Origin: Defluviitaleaceae bacterium | Lineage (GTDB): Bacteria > Bacillota > Clostridia > Lachnospirales > WRAX01 | DNA: 64,000 nucleotides | Assembly: GCA_009780415.1 (NCBI GenBank) | Contig: WRAC01000006.1 | Coordinates: 1-64,000, forward strand | Direction of reading: 5' to 3' | Shown here: positions 2,076 to 7,706 of the stretch, piece by piece | How positions within the stretch are numbered: the stretch's first letter is position 1 | Layout: each line of letters opens with the position of its first letter | Made by a program: the position numbers and the translations under genes | The notes under the pieces: generated by a model | Databases searched by the model: none | What the model saw: only the letters and a program-made list of their open reading frames with translations | What the model was told of the DNA's origin: nothing

Positions 2076-3689
2076 ATGGGGAGTAAAGGGCGTAAATACA
2101 TATTTGTAACCGGCGGCGTGCTGTCGGGCCTTGGCAAAGGCACGATGGCGGCTTCGCTTGGGCGTTTACTTAAAGCGCGGGGATACAGGGTAACGAATTT
2201 GAAGTTTGACGCGTATATTAACGTGGACCCTGGGACAATGAGCCTTTCGCGGCACGGCGAGGTTTTCGTGACGGACGACGGCACCGAATGTGATTTGGAC
2301 ATTGGGAATTACGAACGGTTTATTGACGAGAATCTGCCGGGCGAAAGCAGCGTTACAATTGGCAAGGTTTATCTGAGCGTTATCGAGCGTGAGCGCAGCC
2401 GCGGTTACGAGGGCGAGGACATACAGGTCATCCCGCATATAACGGACGAAATTAAGAAGCGTATACGCGAGGCGGCGGAGAGCTCCGGCGCGGAGATAGC
2501 GATAGTTGAGATCGGCGGCACGGTGGGCGACATAGAGAGCCTTCCGCTGCTTGAGGCCATACGTCAGATGGCGTTCGACGAATCGCGCGGGAACGTGATG
2601 TTCATCCATCTTACGCTTGTTCCGCTTATGCAGAAGTCGGGGGAAATGAAGTCAAAGCCTACGCAGCATTCGGTCAAGGAGCTTCTTTCCTTCGGAATTC
2701 AGCCGGATATTATCGTCTGCCGCTCCGAACAGCCCGTTAACGAGGCGCTGAAAGATAAAATAGCTTTGTTTTGCAACGTACTCCGCGAACGCGTTATACA
2801 AAACACCGACGCGGAATGCATATACGACGTGCCGCTCCAGCTTGAACAGGAGGGGCTTGCAAAGCTTGTGTGCGACAGGCTTTCCATCCCTTACGCCGAA
2901 CCCGACCTTGACGAATGGCGCGGGTTCTGCCGCCGCCGCCGCGAAGCCTCAACACCCGTAAAAATAGCCCTTGTCAGCAAATACACGGAAACGCAGGACG
3001 CGTACCTTTCCGTGACCGAGGCGTTACTGCACGCGTCCGTAAAAGCCGGGTTGAAATTAGACCTGTGCCGGCTTTCCGCGGAAGACCTTGTAAATCCGGA
3101 CGGCCTGTCCCTGCTCCAATCCGCCGAGGGGATCATCATCCCGGGCGGATTCGGTGAACGCGGCGTCCCCGGCATGATACGCGCCGCCGGTTACGCCCGC
3201 CAAAACCGCGTACCGTTCCTTGGCATCGGTCTAGGGATGCACAGCGCCGTCTTTGAATACGCCCGCGCAGTGCTTGACAGGCCTGACGCTTACTCCGCTG
3301 AATACGGAGAAACCACCACGCCTATCATCGACATTATTCCGGAAAGCCGAAACAAAAGAGCTACCGGATCAATGAGGCGGGGCGCTTCGGAAATTACCTT
3401 CACGCCAAATTCCCTGATAAGCGCGTCATATGCCGCTTCCACGGCCATCGAACGCCACCGGCACCGCTATGAAATAAATCCCGCTTACCGCGATGCCCTT
3501 TCTGACGCGGGGATGCTCACCACAGCCTCGTCACAGAACGGCGCGCGGGCCGAAGCCGTAGAGCTTCCCGCTTCCGTCCACCCCTGGTTCGTAGGCGTGC
3601 AATACCATCCCGAGTTCAAATCGCGCCCGAACAGGCCGCATCCGCTTTTTGTCGAATTTATGAGTGCGGCGGCTTTAAAAGATTATTAA
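2076..3689 (+). CDS. pyrG: CTP synthase-like protein lacking the glutaminase cysteine
   Basis: CTP synthase aminates UTP to CTP, using ATP and ammonia from glutamine. The N-terminal synthetase domain is clear: KYIFVTGGVLSGLGKG (P-loop), YINVDPGTMS, HGEVFVTDDG and ERFID. The C-terminal class I amidotransferase has the oxyanion-hole motif PGGFGERG and the His/Glu pair in YHPEF. The nucleophile elbow reads LGIGLGMH, where family members have GICLGMQ. The catalytic cysteine is therefore Gly385, codon GGT at 3228-3230. ERHRHRYE is conserved. ATG 2076 was chosen over GTG 2067 because AAGAGGTG lies at 2062-2069. The protein has 537 residues, the normal length. It could be an ammonia-only enzyme, a regulatory paralogue, or carry a sequencing error at one base. 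Confidence 0.9.
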   Translation: MGSKGRKYIFVTGGVLSGLGKGTMAASLGRLLKARGYRVTNLKFDAYINVDPGTMSLSRHGEVFVTDDGTECDLDIGNYERFIDENLPGESSVTIGKVYLSVIERERSRGYEGEDIQVIPHITDEIKKRIREAAESSGAEIAIVEIGGTVGDIESLPLLEAIRQMAFDESRGNVMFIHLTLVPLMQKSGEMKSKPTQHSVKELLSFGIQPDIIVCRSEQPVNEALKDKIALFCNVLRERVIQNTDAECIYDVPLQLEQEGLAKLVCDRLSIPYAEPDLDEWRGFCRRRREASTPVKIALVSKYTETQDAYLSVTEALLHASVKAGLKLDLCRLSAEDLVNPDGLSLLQSAEGIIIPGGFGERGVPGMIRAAGYARQNRVPFLGIGLGMHSAVFEYARAVLDRPDAYSAEYGETTTPIIDIIPESRNKRATGSMRRGASEITFTPNSLISASYAASTAIERHRHRYEINPAYRDALSDAGMLTTASSQNGARAEAVELPASVHPWFVGVQYHPEFKSRPNRPHPLFVEFMSAAALKDY

Positions 3690-4112: not shown

Positions 4113-7100
4113 ATGAAGAAGAAACTTGCAATGCTTCTCGCGCTTGTAATGGTTGCCGGCGTACTTTCGCCCATCAGCCTTACAGCGACAACAGTCAGAG
4201 AAGGCACGTTCGTCAGGCACTCACGCAGCGGTTCTATTACCGGCGCTACGAGTGACAACACCCTTTTGGTTGACGAGCGTATCGGCGCTGACTCACGTAC
4301 CCGTATGTCCACCAGGCTTGAGGTTCCGACCCCCGGATCGAGCAGAGTACGTACTGCCGATAACAATCCGGGCCTCGCTAACTTAGGTAACGGTGTAGAC
4401 GTGATCCTGCAGGTTGCGGCAAACACGTCAACAGTAGCCGCTTCCCGTATGCCGATTCAATACAACCTCAGGCTGACCAACGCCTCGTTCGCTTACTTCG
4501 GTGACCCCACTGAAACCGACCAAGATGCATTTTTAAGCACAGGCGCCGGTGTCCGTCCGAATGAGTTTGTCAACGGTATCAGCGGAACTAAAAAGAATTA
4601 TACTAATACAGGTCTTAACTGGTCATTTGATCCCAATGTCTTGGAACCCAGCTATGAAAGCGCTGACATAGGCTCATTCGGTCAGTTTAACGTTCTGGAA
4701 GCCAGTGCGGCCAGAACCGACTTGATCCCGAATTCGAGCAGTGAACTCACCAGAGTAGTAACTTATATGAACGCCATGATGACGGCGGTACTGCCGACCA
4801 TGGCGGTTGCTTCACCTGGTGACAGCGGCACCGTTTTAGAGGGCGTCTTTAAAGACCGCGTTGACGATTATACGCGTCATACCAACGACGTCACCGGCTG
4901 GGACAACACAACATCCGGCAACGCGCTTGTTGTTTCCGGAATGAGAAACGCGGAACGTGATTTCTTCAGAGAATGGGCTTACTGGATTTTCCGTGAAATC
5001 CTTCACCGTGTAGCGGGTGGGAATTCCGATGCCTACTTGAAGATTTACGACGATTTTTATCTGGCAACCGGTAATAATTTGCGGGCCAGAAGAGACCTTG
5101 TGAGTGAGAACACTTTCAAACGCACCAGCCCGTACTTCGCCGCGTTTGACGAGCACACCACGAGTACCGGAAAAGTGCTTTCGTACACGCTTGAAATCAG
5201 CAATACCGACGCGTCTAGGGCCGTGCTTACGCTTGACCATGGACAGTCTATCGCCGCCGGCGACATCATCGGCCTTCCGCTTTCGATTATCGTCCACAAC
5301 GGAAGCGAAGCGGTTAACCTGAATTTCGCGGCCACCGCGGCCAGCAACCTTAGAGGGCATGATCCTGCCGACGTACCGATCAGCTCGGGAACAGCCGGCG
5401 GAGAAGCGGGCCGTACTACCGTAACCTTCAGGAACACGGTTGAATCCGCCGGTTTCAGGGCTTACCTTGACCGTTTCACACTCCGTGAAATCCACGCAGG
5501 CGTACTCCGCAGCGGTACGTTCGTACTCGTACCCCCGCCGGGATACAACCTCTATGACGACGACTTCCAGATCATAGACGCCACATTCCCGTTCGCCGAT
5601 ATTGGTAGTGCGCATGGAGAAACCGGAGCGACGTATATCGCTCAGAAGACTGAGTTTACGTTCAGAGACACCAGCCTGCGCGGCAACCCGCCGTTGCAGA
5701 GAGCGCTTGCCGTCACCCTTGTGGTTCCTCATGAAAACGTGACACGTACCGGCGCGCGCGGCGGTTCAATCACCTTCAGCGGAGTCTCGATGGCACCCAT
5801 AACCAACGATCCGTTCTGGTCACCGGAAGCGGGCGCGGTTGAAATCGGTCTTATGAACTGGTCCAGCGACGTAGGCGTAGGCGGAAGCAACCGTCACGAA
5901 GCCTTCCTCGGCAGAGACAATGACTATGTGCCGGAGAGACGCGCAATAGCCTGGGTATGGGATAAAAAAGCCTTTAAGATTGGCGAGCAGGAATTTAGTG
6001 AAGTAACAAACAACGATCGCAGGGCAGAATTGGTCTTCTGGCCGGACGCCGATGTCAGACGCGACAGGGATGCGTGGGAGGTCCACGAGCTTGACGCCAA
6101 TGAGGATGAATTCGATAAGAACCTTGCTGGCAGCGGTGAAGACGCAAACCAATGGGCTGTTGACTTTGCCCAAGGTATCAACATGACCAACACATGGGAA
6201 GAAGTACTGAACCGTCAGGAATGGACCCTTGGCTTAGGCTTGGCCGAAGACGAAGAGCCCACCCTGAACTTCTCCGGACGCAGATTCGAAGAGACAGCTG
6301 TTATCCTCTTAGAGGAGCGGTCCCTTGACTCCTGGAACGTTGGGCATCACACCGTGTTTACCGTTGTTGACGCGGATGGCAATTTGCTTGAGGAAGTAAA
6401 GATCTCCGCAATAACCATCGACGAGGTTGAGAACCTTTCTCGCTTGCGCGCAACTAACGCCCCCGGGCAGCCTTCAGGCATAGACAACAGGTTTGCGCAC
6501 GCGAACGATGAGAATACAAGCGCGCTGAACCATGAAATCGTGTTCTTTGACAGAGAAGGCCATAAGGTTACTCTTACGGATCTTCGCCGCAACAACTCCC
6601 GCGACCTGGTCGCCTTGGAAATCATGTTCGAGCTGTCGGCACGCGCTGACTTCTCAGGCGATGTGTATATCGAAGTAAGCGGCGGCGCCCTTGGCAACGC
6701 GAAGCTGAACCGTGACAGAGTACACGTTGCGACATTCGAGCCTGCGTTCTTCCTCGTAACCGAGACAACCGAGATTCAGATTGGTTACCAGTCCTTCCCG
6801 GTCGCCGACATTACGATCATCGAGAACTACGAGTTTAAGGGAGAGCCGGCCATACTTGTCGATCAAATCTTCGAAATCGCTATCGGCGAGTTCGGCAGAC
6901 AGACAGCCACCACCACCGGCACCGTCGGTTCCCTGCATAACATGATCCCGTTCAACCCGATCACCAGGGATGACGTATCGACAGCCAGCGGTGACCCGCA
7001 GTTTATGGTCTCCAACGTTATATCCAACAACAGAACCGGACATCTGGAGTTCACGGTAAACAGAAGAAGCCGTGATATCGCGGGTGAAGTCAAACTCTCC

Positions 7101-7706
7101 AACCTTGCTGTTAACACCAACCGTAATATTGCGGAAGGTTACTACGATCTTATCGTAACGCTCCACAGCATGCGCGGCGCCAATGACTTCGAGTCCAACC
7201 AGTATCCGAACAATATGACCCCGCTGTTTGACAGGTTTGTAGTTTCCGGTATAATCTTCCCGAACTACGTCCAGAACATCACCGAAGGCGCGAACCGTAC
7301 AGCGATCAGCGAAGTAAGAGTATATGCACCCTCCACCTACGCAGTAGTTGACGGCGTTGAGTTCGCCTTAGACGCGCCGATCATCAACTGGGACGGCAGA
7401 CTGCACGTACCGCTCCGTTTCATCTCCAACATCCTTGGTATAACGGATGAAATGTTCATCTACAACGATGACCTCAAGCAGGTTACCATCTTCACCGAAG
7501 GCAGAACCATCGTGTTCGCCCACGAGTCTGAGAGCTACTGGGTCAATGGTATTGAGCAGAGCTTAATGTTTGAAGACGGTACACGCGGTATGGCATTCAT
7601 CGACGCGAGCATCGGTAGATTCTACCTTCCCTTCAGACACCTTGGAAATGCCCTTGGTATCCCGGTAAGCCACGAAGGCGCTATTGGAATCTACAACCCG
7701 AGGTAA
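4113..7706 (+). CDS. Large secreted surface protein with C-terminal stalk (copper amine oxidase N-like) domain
   Basis: The 1197-residue protein begins with a Sec signal peptide (MKKKLAMLLALVMVAG, cleavage after about residue 25). The last ~125 residues, from about VRVYAPSTYAVVDG, have the pattern of the copper amine oxidase N-terminal-like fold of clostridial exported proteins: two strand-rich repeats with VPLRFISNILGI and LPFRHLGNALGI. The middle ~1000 residues are rich in Thr, Asn, Asp and beta-strand patterns and match no family I can name. Codon use (CGT, ATC, AAC, CTT) is more biased than in its neighbours, implying high expression, and the promoter, AAGGAGG site and terminator are strong. 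I infer a major cell-surface or S-layer-like protein. No SLH repeats or LPXTG motif were seen. Confidence 0.8.
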   Translation: MKKKLAMLLALVMVAGVLSPISLTATTVREGTFVRHSRSGSITGATSDNTLLVDERIGADSRTRMSTRLEVPTPGSSRVRTADNNPGLANLGNGVDVILQVAANTSTVAASRMPIQYNLRLTNASFAYFGDPTETDQDAFLSTGAGVRPNEFVNGISGTKKNYTNTGLNWSFDPNVLEPSYESADIGSFGQFNVLEASAARTDLIPNSSSELTRVVTYMNAMMTAVLPTMAVASPGDSGTVLEGVFKDRVDDYTRHTNDVTGWDNTTSGNALVVSGMRNAERDFFREWAYWIFREILHRVAGGNSDAYLKIYDDFYLATGNNLRARRDLVSENTFKRTSPYFAAFDEHTTSTGKVLSYTLEISNTDASRAVLTLDHGQSIAAGDIIGLPLSIIVHNGSEAVNLNFAATAASNLRGHDPADVPISSGTAGGEAGRTTVTFRNTVESAGFRAYLDRFTLREIHAGVLRSGTFVLVPPPGYNLYDDDFQIIDATFPFADIGSAHGETGATYIAQKTEFTFRDTSLRGNPPLQRALAVTLVVPHENVTRTGARGGSITFSGVSMAPITNDPFWSPEAGAVEIGLMNWSSDVGVGGSNRHEAFLGRDNDYVPERRAIAWVWDKKAFKIGEQEFSEVTNNDRRAELVFWPDADVRRDRDAWEVHELDANEDEFDKNLAGSGEDANQWAVDFAQGINMTNTWEEVLNRQEWTLGLGLAEDEEPTLNFSGRRFEETAVILLEERSLDSWNVGHHTVFTVVDADGNLLEEVKISAITIDEVENLSRLRATNAPGQPSGIDNRFAHANDENTSALNHEIVFFDREGHKVTLTDLRRNNSRDLVALEIMFELSARADFSGDVYIEVSGGALGNAKLNRDRVHVATFEPAFFLVTETTEIQIGYQSFPVADITIIENYEFKGEPAILVDQIFEIAIGEFGRQTATTTGTVGSLHNMIPFNPITRDDVSTASGDPQFMVSNVISNNRTGHLEFTVNRRSRDIAGEVKLSNLAVNTNRNIAEGYYDLIVTLHSMRGANDFESNQYPNNMTPLFDRFVVSGIIFPNYVQNITEGANRTAISEVRVYAPSTYAVVDGVEFALDAPIINWDGRLHVPLRFISNILGITDEMFIYNDDLKQVTIFTEGRTIVFAHESESYWVNGIEQSLMFEDGTRGMAFIDASIGRFYLPFRHLGNALGIPVSHEGAIGIYNPR

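Follow-up and report, generated by a model that had tools for sequence, protein, structure and literature searches.

The pyrG-like gene at positions 2076–3689 (+) of the window, the 64,000-nucleotide stretch of Defluviitaleaceae bacterium DNA analysed here, very probably encodes a working CTP synthase which aminates UTP with free ammonia, the nucleophile of its glutaminase site having been lost in an old and shared change that is coupled to GMP synthetase (GuaA). The state of the sequence, its recurrence in relatives, the single copy of the gene and the association with GuaA were observed, while in-cell catalysis with ammonia and a life in ammonia-rich surroundings are inferred without an enzyme assay, and failure to use glutamine is a prediction that rests on the absent nucleophile alone. 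In textbooks, CTP synthase and GMP synthetase count as glutamine amidotransferases.

The reading frame of 537 codons for amino acids is intact, as had been claimed from the sequence alone, running open from ATG at 2076 to the stop that ends at 3689, with GTG at 2067 as an alternative start. It joins a synthase (amidoligase) domain (PF06418, CTP_synth_N; residues 7–271, 2094–2888 (+); 393.1–395.5 bits) to a C-terminal class I glutaminase (GATase) domain (PF00117; residues 307–529, 2994–3662 (+); 108.4–110.8 bits), both over the Pfam cut-offs, and the P-loop GGVLSGLGKG is kept. An AlphaFold2 model computed from a 30-row alignment (mean pLDDT 89.3, pTM 0.89, low confidence at residues 428–430) matches solved bacterial CTP synthases in the PDB with TM-scores of about 0.92–0.95. 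The protein resembles PyrG (TIGR00337; e.g. 1vco, 1s1m) in domain order, both Pfam domains, fold and the catalytic His and Glu, but has Gly in place of the nucleophile Cys and an erosion of otherwise constant GATase positions. It nevertheless scores 694 bits against TIGR00337, over the cut-off despite the missing Cys, and carries the NCBIfam label 'glutamine hydrolyzing CTP synthase' despite Gly385.

The bases at 3222–3239 (+), GGCATCGGTCTAGGGATG, encode the nucleophile elbow GIGLGM, in which Gly385 (codon GGT, 3228–3230) replaces Cys, exactly as originally predicted. The Cys-His-Glu triad is incomplete, being represented by Gly385 together with His511 and Glu513, which are kept in an HPE segment (3606–3614 (+)), and in the model the elbow is intact around Gly385, with a strand at 381–384 and a helix from 386. 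The segment GGFGERG (residues 357–363, 3144–3164 (+)) is also kept and presumably forms the oxyanion strand and the start of lid L11, names taken in part from a review; the Glu that follows it in the pattern GFGxRGxEG is Pro in the window. Loop L13, tied to GTP activation of the CTP synthase glutaminase (PMC9138612), was assigned by alignment to residues about 416–434 (3321–3377 (+)), and this region counts 16 residues in the window and 8 in the Gly-bearing clade of family f1 (families and genomes carry our working labels, G000 being the window's own genome); in 174 of 178 Cys-bearing sequences it counts 17.

Erosion of the two domains was counted at positions at least 97% constant in the 178 Cys-bearing sequences, from which close copies had not all been removed, with the triad excluded; this left 88 synthase-domain and 53 glutaminase-domain positions. 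The window protein is changed at 6 of the former (82 kept) and 8 of the latter (45 kept), against means of 0.34 and 0.35 in the Cys-bearing sequences and a maximum of 6 for their glutaminase domains. In view of these eight changed GATase positions, the original claim that nothing else in the glutaminase landmarks is altered goes too far. In the Cys-less genes of families f1 and f5, 3–7 synthase and 9–22 glutaminase positions are changed; the corresponding counts are 5 and 3 in G077, and the glutaminase domain of G039, a record cut at its start, has one change.

Loss of the nucleophile is recurrent in the order. It was seen in 11 of 49 CTP synthase sequences from a first batch of relatives, and a survey of 392 genomes, 341 of which had a match, led to 70 loci being read, 49 of them intact and 21 with Gly (9 already in the first batch). 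With a targeted set of 31 genomes added (family f5 and two f17 genomes) and repeats removed, the order total came to 129 genes from 122 genomes, 97 with Cys and 32, including the window, without it; the residue is Gly in 31 and Ser in one (G039). This set is non-random, as it favours family f5 and genes scoring well against a Cys-less profile, and the cut genes of G006 and G012, which cannot be classified for Cys, are outside the counts. Only a Cys-less copy is found in 25 of the 122 genomes (14 of these being 90% or more complete), both types in 7 and only a Cys-bearing copy in 90. The triad His or Glu is also lost in half of the Cys-less genes (16/32), and both are kept in all 97 Cys-bearing ones. 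The 30 other Gly-bearing genes listed use GGC (12), GGA (8), GGT (6) and GGG (4), and an elbow identical to that of the window, GIGLGM, occurs in 14 f5 genes (10 with HPE kept) and in G077 (f17). The trait was not found outside the order among the best 80 matches to the window protein in titled public loci, all 80 of which keep Cys, His and Glu.

A tree restricted to the synthase domain (91 rows by 279 columns, glutaminase domain left out) groups the window with G006 and the f1 clade (99/90). That clade comprises every other Gly-bearing gene that could be read in the window's family, eight in number, and the cut G012 gene; whether Gly is conserved in homologues can accordingly be answered with yes for these eight clade mates. 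A second Cys-less group consists of 21 f5 genes (97/91), and G077 and G039 lie apart from both. The full-length tree joins f1 and f5, weakly (89/71), and we do not claim one common origin because the synthase-only tree does not join them. Judging from these sequences, two to four origins within the order is a fair statement, and the loss would be old and shared, having arisen in the common ancestor of part of the window's family and, separately, in other families.

The window's genome encodes a GMP synthetase (locus L164, G000:C2, 776–2008 (-)) whose glutaminase domain is internally deleted. Its ATPPase and C-terminal part is complete (TIGR00884, 387.7 bits; PF00958, 102.6 bits), while the N-terminal glutaminase model reaches 29.3 bits over positions 1–79 of 188, with a cut-off of 172; the elbow and HPE segments are absent from the alignment, and a profile search of the genome gave no PF00117 match at this locus. 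Even so, its score passes the cut-off of NCBIfam's 'glutamine-hydrolyzing GMP synthase' model. The original prediction had not noticed that GMP synthetase shares the loss.

We compared the two enzymes in 55 genomes that have a GuaA that can be read and CTP synthase of a single type. Where that type is Cys-less, GuaA lacks its nucleophile in 19 of 21 genomes; where it is Cys-bearing, in none of 34. Left out were the seven genomes that carry CTP synthases of both types, those without a GuaA match (e.g. G011, G150, G185), those with a cut or split GuaA (G016, G018, G072) and those whose CTP synthase is missing or cut, namely G004, G006 and G013, where the GuaA glutaminase site is missing, and G012, where it is intact. 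The routes to loss differ: the whole domain is gone in, for example, G002, G082, G091 and G108, there is an internal deletion in G000, G001, G010, G115 and G244, the domain is degenerate in G039, and a full-length GuaA in G129 (L360, G129:C19:3324–4838), next to a Cys-less CTP synthase in the same genome, reads GIDYGM with Asp for Cys. Two genomes with a Cys-less CTP synthase are exceptions, G009 with an intact GuaA and G005, in which the GuaA Cys is kept and HPE has become HPQ.

Fisher's test on this association gives 7.5e-13 when kinship is ignored, a value that overstates it because the compared genomes are related. On the tree, the Cys state of CTP synthase changes four times over the 55 rows and GuaA six times, with one independent pair of changes on well-supported branches and a sign test that is not significant; we therefore rejected the Fisher value as strong statistical proof. 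The combination of a Cys-less CTP synthase with a glutaminase-less GMP synthetase is a two-enzyme pattern that has apparently not been described.

Both enzymes can in principle work in this way, since CTP synthase (PMC9138612) and GMP synthetase (PMC10526850) accept exogenous ammonia; the E. coli CTP synthase G352P variant is reported to have no detectable glutamine-dependent activity and to be almost fully active with NH4Cl. In the window enzyme a glutamyl-thioester cannot form because the nucleophile is Gly. UTP would be phosphorylated by ATP in the synthase domain and the phosphate then replaced by free NH3, at the price of dependence on ambient ammonia. The glutaminase domain probably still folds and serves as a scaffold and for ammonia entry, and the dead domain would be retained as a requirement of the tetramer and of ammonia entry; GuaA, unlike CTP synthase, can by inference drop its glutaminase domain, and has lost this function in most such genomes, be it through a point change, an internal deletion or the disappearance of the entire domain. 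As the GuaA glutaminase is lost too, both final nucleotide-amination steps, on UTP and XMP, are probably fed by ammonia. The earlier proposal that the window enzyme is unable to use glutamine and may depend on ammonia fits all these findings, as far as can be inferred without an assay.

Several other explanations of Gly385 have to be weighed. The original prediction had named an error as the main alternative: the enzyme would be an ordinary glutamine-dependent one, misread or misassembled at base 3228. This could draw on the facts that GGT is one base away from a Cys codon, that the triad has retained its His and Glu and that no relative with a readable glutaminase domain was found above 57% identity, the G006 gene, at 78%, being cut by the contig end before that domain. 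However, an error would not account for Gly in each of the eight clade mates that could be read, nor for its presence in 31 of the order's 129 genes, the window included (32 being Cys-less), spelled with four different codons, nor for the eight eroded glutaminase positions and the lost glutaminase of the genome's own GuaA, and it can be regarded as virtually ruled out. Decay of the gene, with CTP supplied by cytidine salvage, is hardly credible: the window branch is long (1.46 in the full-length tree, 0.49 on synthase columns) and six constant synthase positions are changed, but the frame is open, the synthase domain is strongly kept, several families are alike and GuaA has changed in parallel.

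The coexistence of Cys-less and Cys-bearing copies in 7 of 122 genomes would suit a non-catalytic or regulatory paralogue, for instance a filament partner, with CTP made by another enzyme. A profile search of the window's genome (2.53 Mb in 85 contigs, with a completeness rating of 100%) weakens the regulatory role suggested earlier, as it returned a single CTP_synth_N match, the window pyrG itself, and hence no second, Cys-bearing pyrG; with 25 genomes holding only the Cys-less type and 82 of 88 constant synthase positions kept in the window, we consider this explanation highly improbable. It is also very unlikely that glutamine is still used, either through a separate glutaminase subunit, such as archaeal two-subunit GMP synthetases have (PMC10526850), or through another nucleophile in the same domain. 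A PF00117 profile search of the window's genome found no such subunit, the only other match being a 225-aa protein that, by reading, is C26/PuuD-like; as to another nucleophile, His or Glu is missing as well in half of the Cys-less genes, and at a nearby site that is often Cys the window has Ser. A working, ammonia-using CTP synthase remains the preferred reading.

For five of the seven genomes that have both CTP synthases, we read the genes around the Cys-bearing copy. On a contig of G178 (L387, G178:C75:1–13987) the order is glnA, a gene for an ANTAR-domain regulator, purF, carA, carB (by reading), a full guaA and the Cys-bearing pyrG; in G053 (L385, G053:C15:34000–53000) it is gdhA, glmS, glnA, ANTAR, guaA and pyrG; and in G224 (L388, G224:C15:8000–27000) purB, purA, glmS, glnA, ANTAR, dapF and pyrG are followed by an aminotransferase (by reading) and a 694-aa GSIII-like protein. 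G041 (L389, G041:C2:93000–112000) resembles G224, with ANTAR tested and the rest identified by reading. In G191 a full guaA, carB (by reading) and an adjoining carA-like GATase lie some 4 kb from pyrG, and no ANTAR gene was seen in the stretch read around it. The sets of glutamine synthetase, ANTAR and purF, carA, glmS, guaA or pyrG in G178, G053, G224 and G041 are candidates for an ANTAR-controlled glutamine regulon; nothing useful on an ANTAR gene beside glnA was found in the open-licence literature. The Cys-less pyrG lies on contigs other than that of the Cys-bearing copy, as does a second, GATase-less guaA in G178 and G191. The two CTP synthase types appear to be old because the Cys-bearing copies of these genomes sit on a different branch (98/86, synthase-only tree).

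Other glutamine enzymes differ as well. In a 58-genome set, the nine only-Cys-less genomes all lack a strong glnA match: four have a weak one (a frame of ~700 aa) and five none. A full GlmS over the cut-off is present in one of seven only-Cys-less genomes (G009) against seven of nine only-Cys-bearing ones; it was not found in G000, G001, G002, G005, G010 and G011, all with a Cys-less CTP synthase. In G022, which has no complete GlmS over the cut-off, a 353-aa frame (L219, G022:C226) corresponds only to the sugar-isomerase half of GlmS (251–603), without the glutaminase half. A class II GATase match was absent from the window's genome in the profile search, and loss of all glutamine amidotransferases was considered until the start of purF (positions 1–34) was found at a contig end (L247, G000:C10:4–108), on which that possibility was rejected. 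Most profile searches missed this gene, although the genome is rated 100% complete. PurF is complete in the six Cys-less relatives looked at (G001, G002, G005, G009, G010, G011), and since it is present in these and begins at a contig end in the window's genome, glutamine use has not been abandoned. The order may hold two tiers, an ammonia-only one for ammonia-rich conditions and a glutamine-using one, clustered with glutamine synthetase and an ANTAR antitermination regulator, for when ammonia is scarce, the window's lineage having dropped the latter and become obligately dependent on ammonia for CTP and GMP; we see even chances for this scheme.

The nearest parallels are the archaeal two-subunit GMP synthetase and vertebrate carbamoyl phosphate synthetase I. 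The latter keeps a glutaminase-like domain in which the nucleophile Cys is replaced and uses ammonia; unlike the window enzyme, it is a different, eukaryotic enzyme with N-acetylglutamate as allosteric effector. The archaeal GMP synthetase (PMC10526850) has an ATPPase part without a fused glutaminase, like the GATase-less GuaA here, but also a separate glutaminase subunit, a counterpart of which did not turn up in the window's genome. Single-domain NadE, according to a 2012 survey (PMC3376133), is likewise an ammonia-fed synthetase with glutamine-using relatives, and some genomes hold both; its glutaminase is nitrilase-type and commonly absent, whereas that of the window CTP synthase is kept but dead. 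Table 1 of the survey lists NadE without glutaminase in 44% of 886 genomes; for pyrG and guaA it gives the fused form in every genome counted (100% of 800 and of 730, respectively). Neither a natural Cys-less CTP synthase nor a bacterial GMP synthetase without glutaminase was found described in titles and abstract beginnings of the open-licence literature, which is weak evidence of novelty.

If the reading is correct, the repeated and coupled natural loss shows that living cells can rely on free ammonia alone as nitrogen donor for both nucleotides, provides natural enzymes without glutaminase for studies of ammonia entry and GTP activation, and means that standard annotation ('glutamine hydrolyzing') conceals a switch of nitrogen donor. 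Genomes with both versions make the choice between glutamine and ammonia in vivo directly testable. Directly downstream of pyrG, the window encodes a 1197-aa protein (4113–7706 (+)) with a C-terminal Cu_amine_oxidN1 domain and, by reading, an N-terminal hydrophobic, signal-like stretch.
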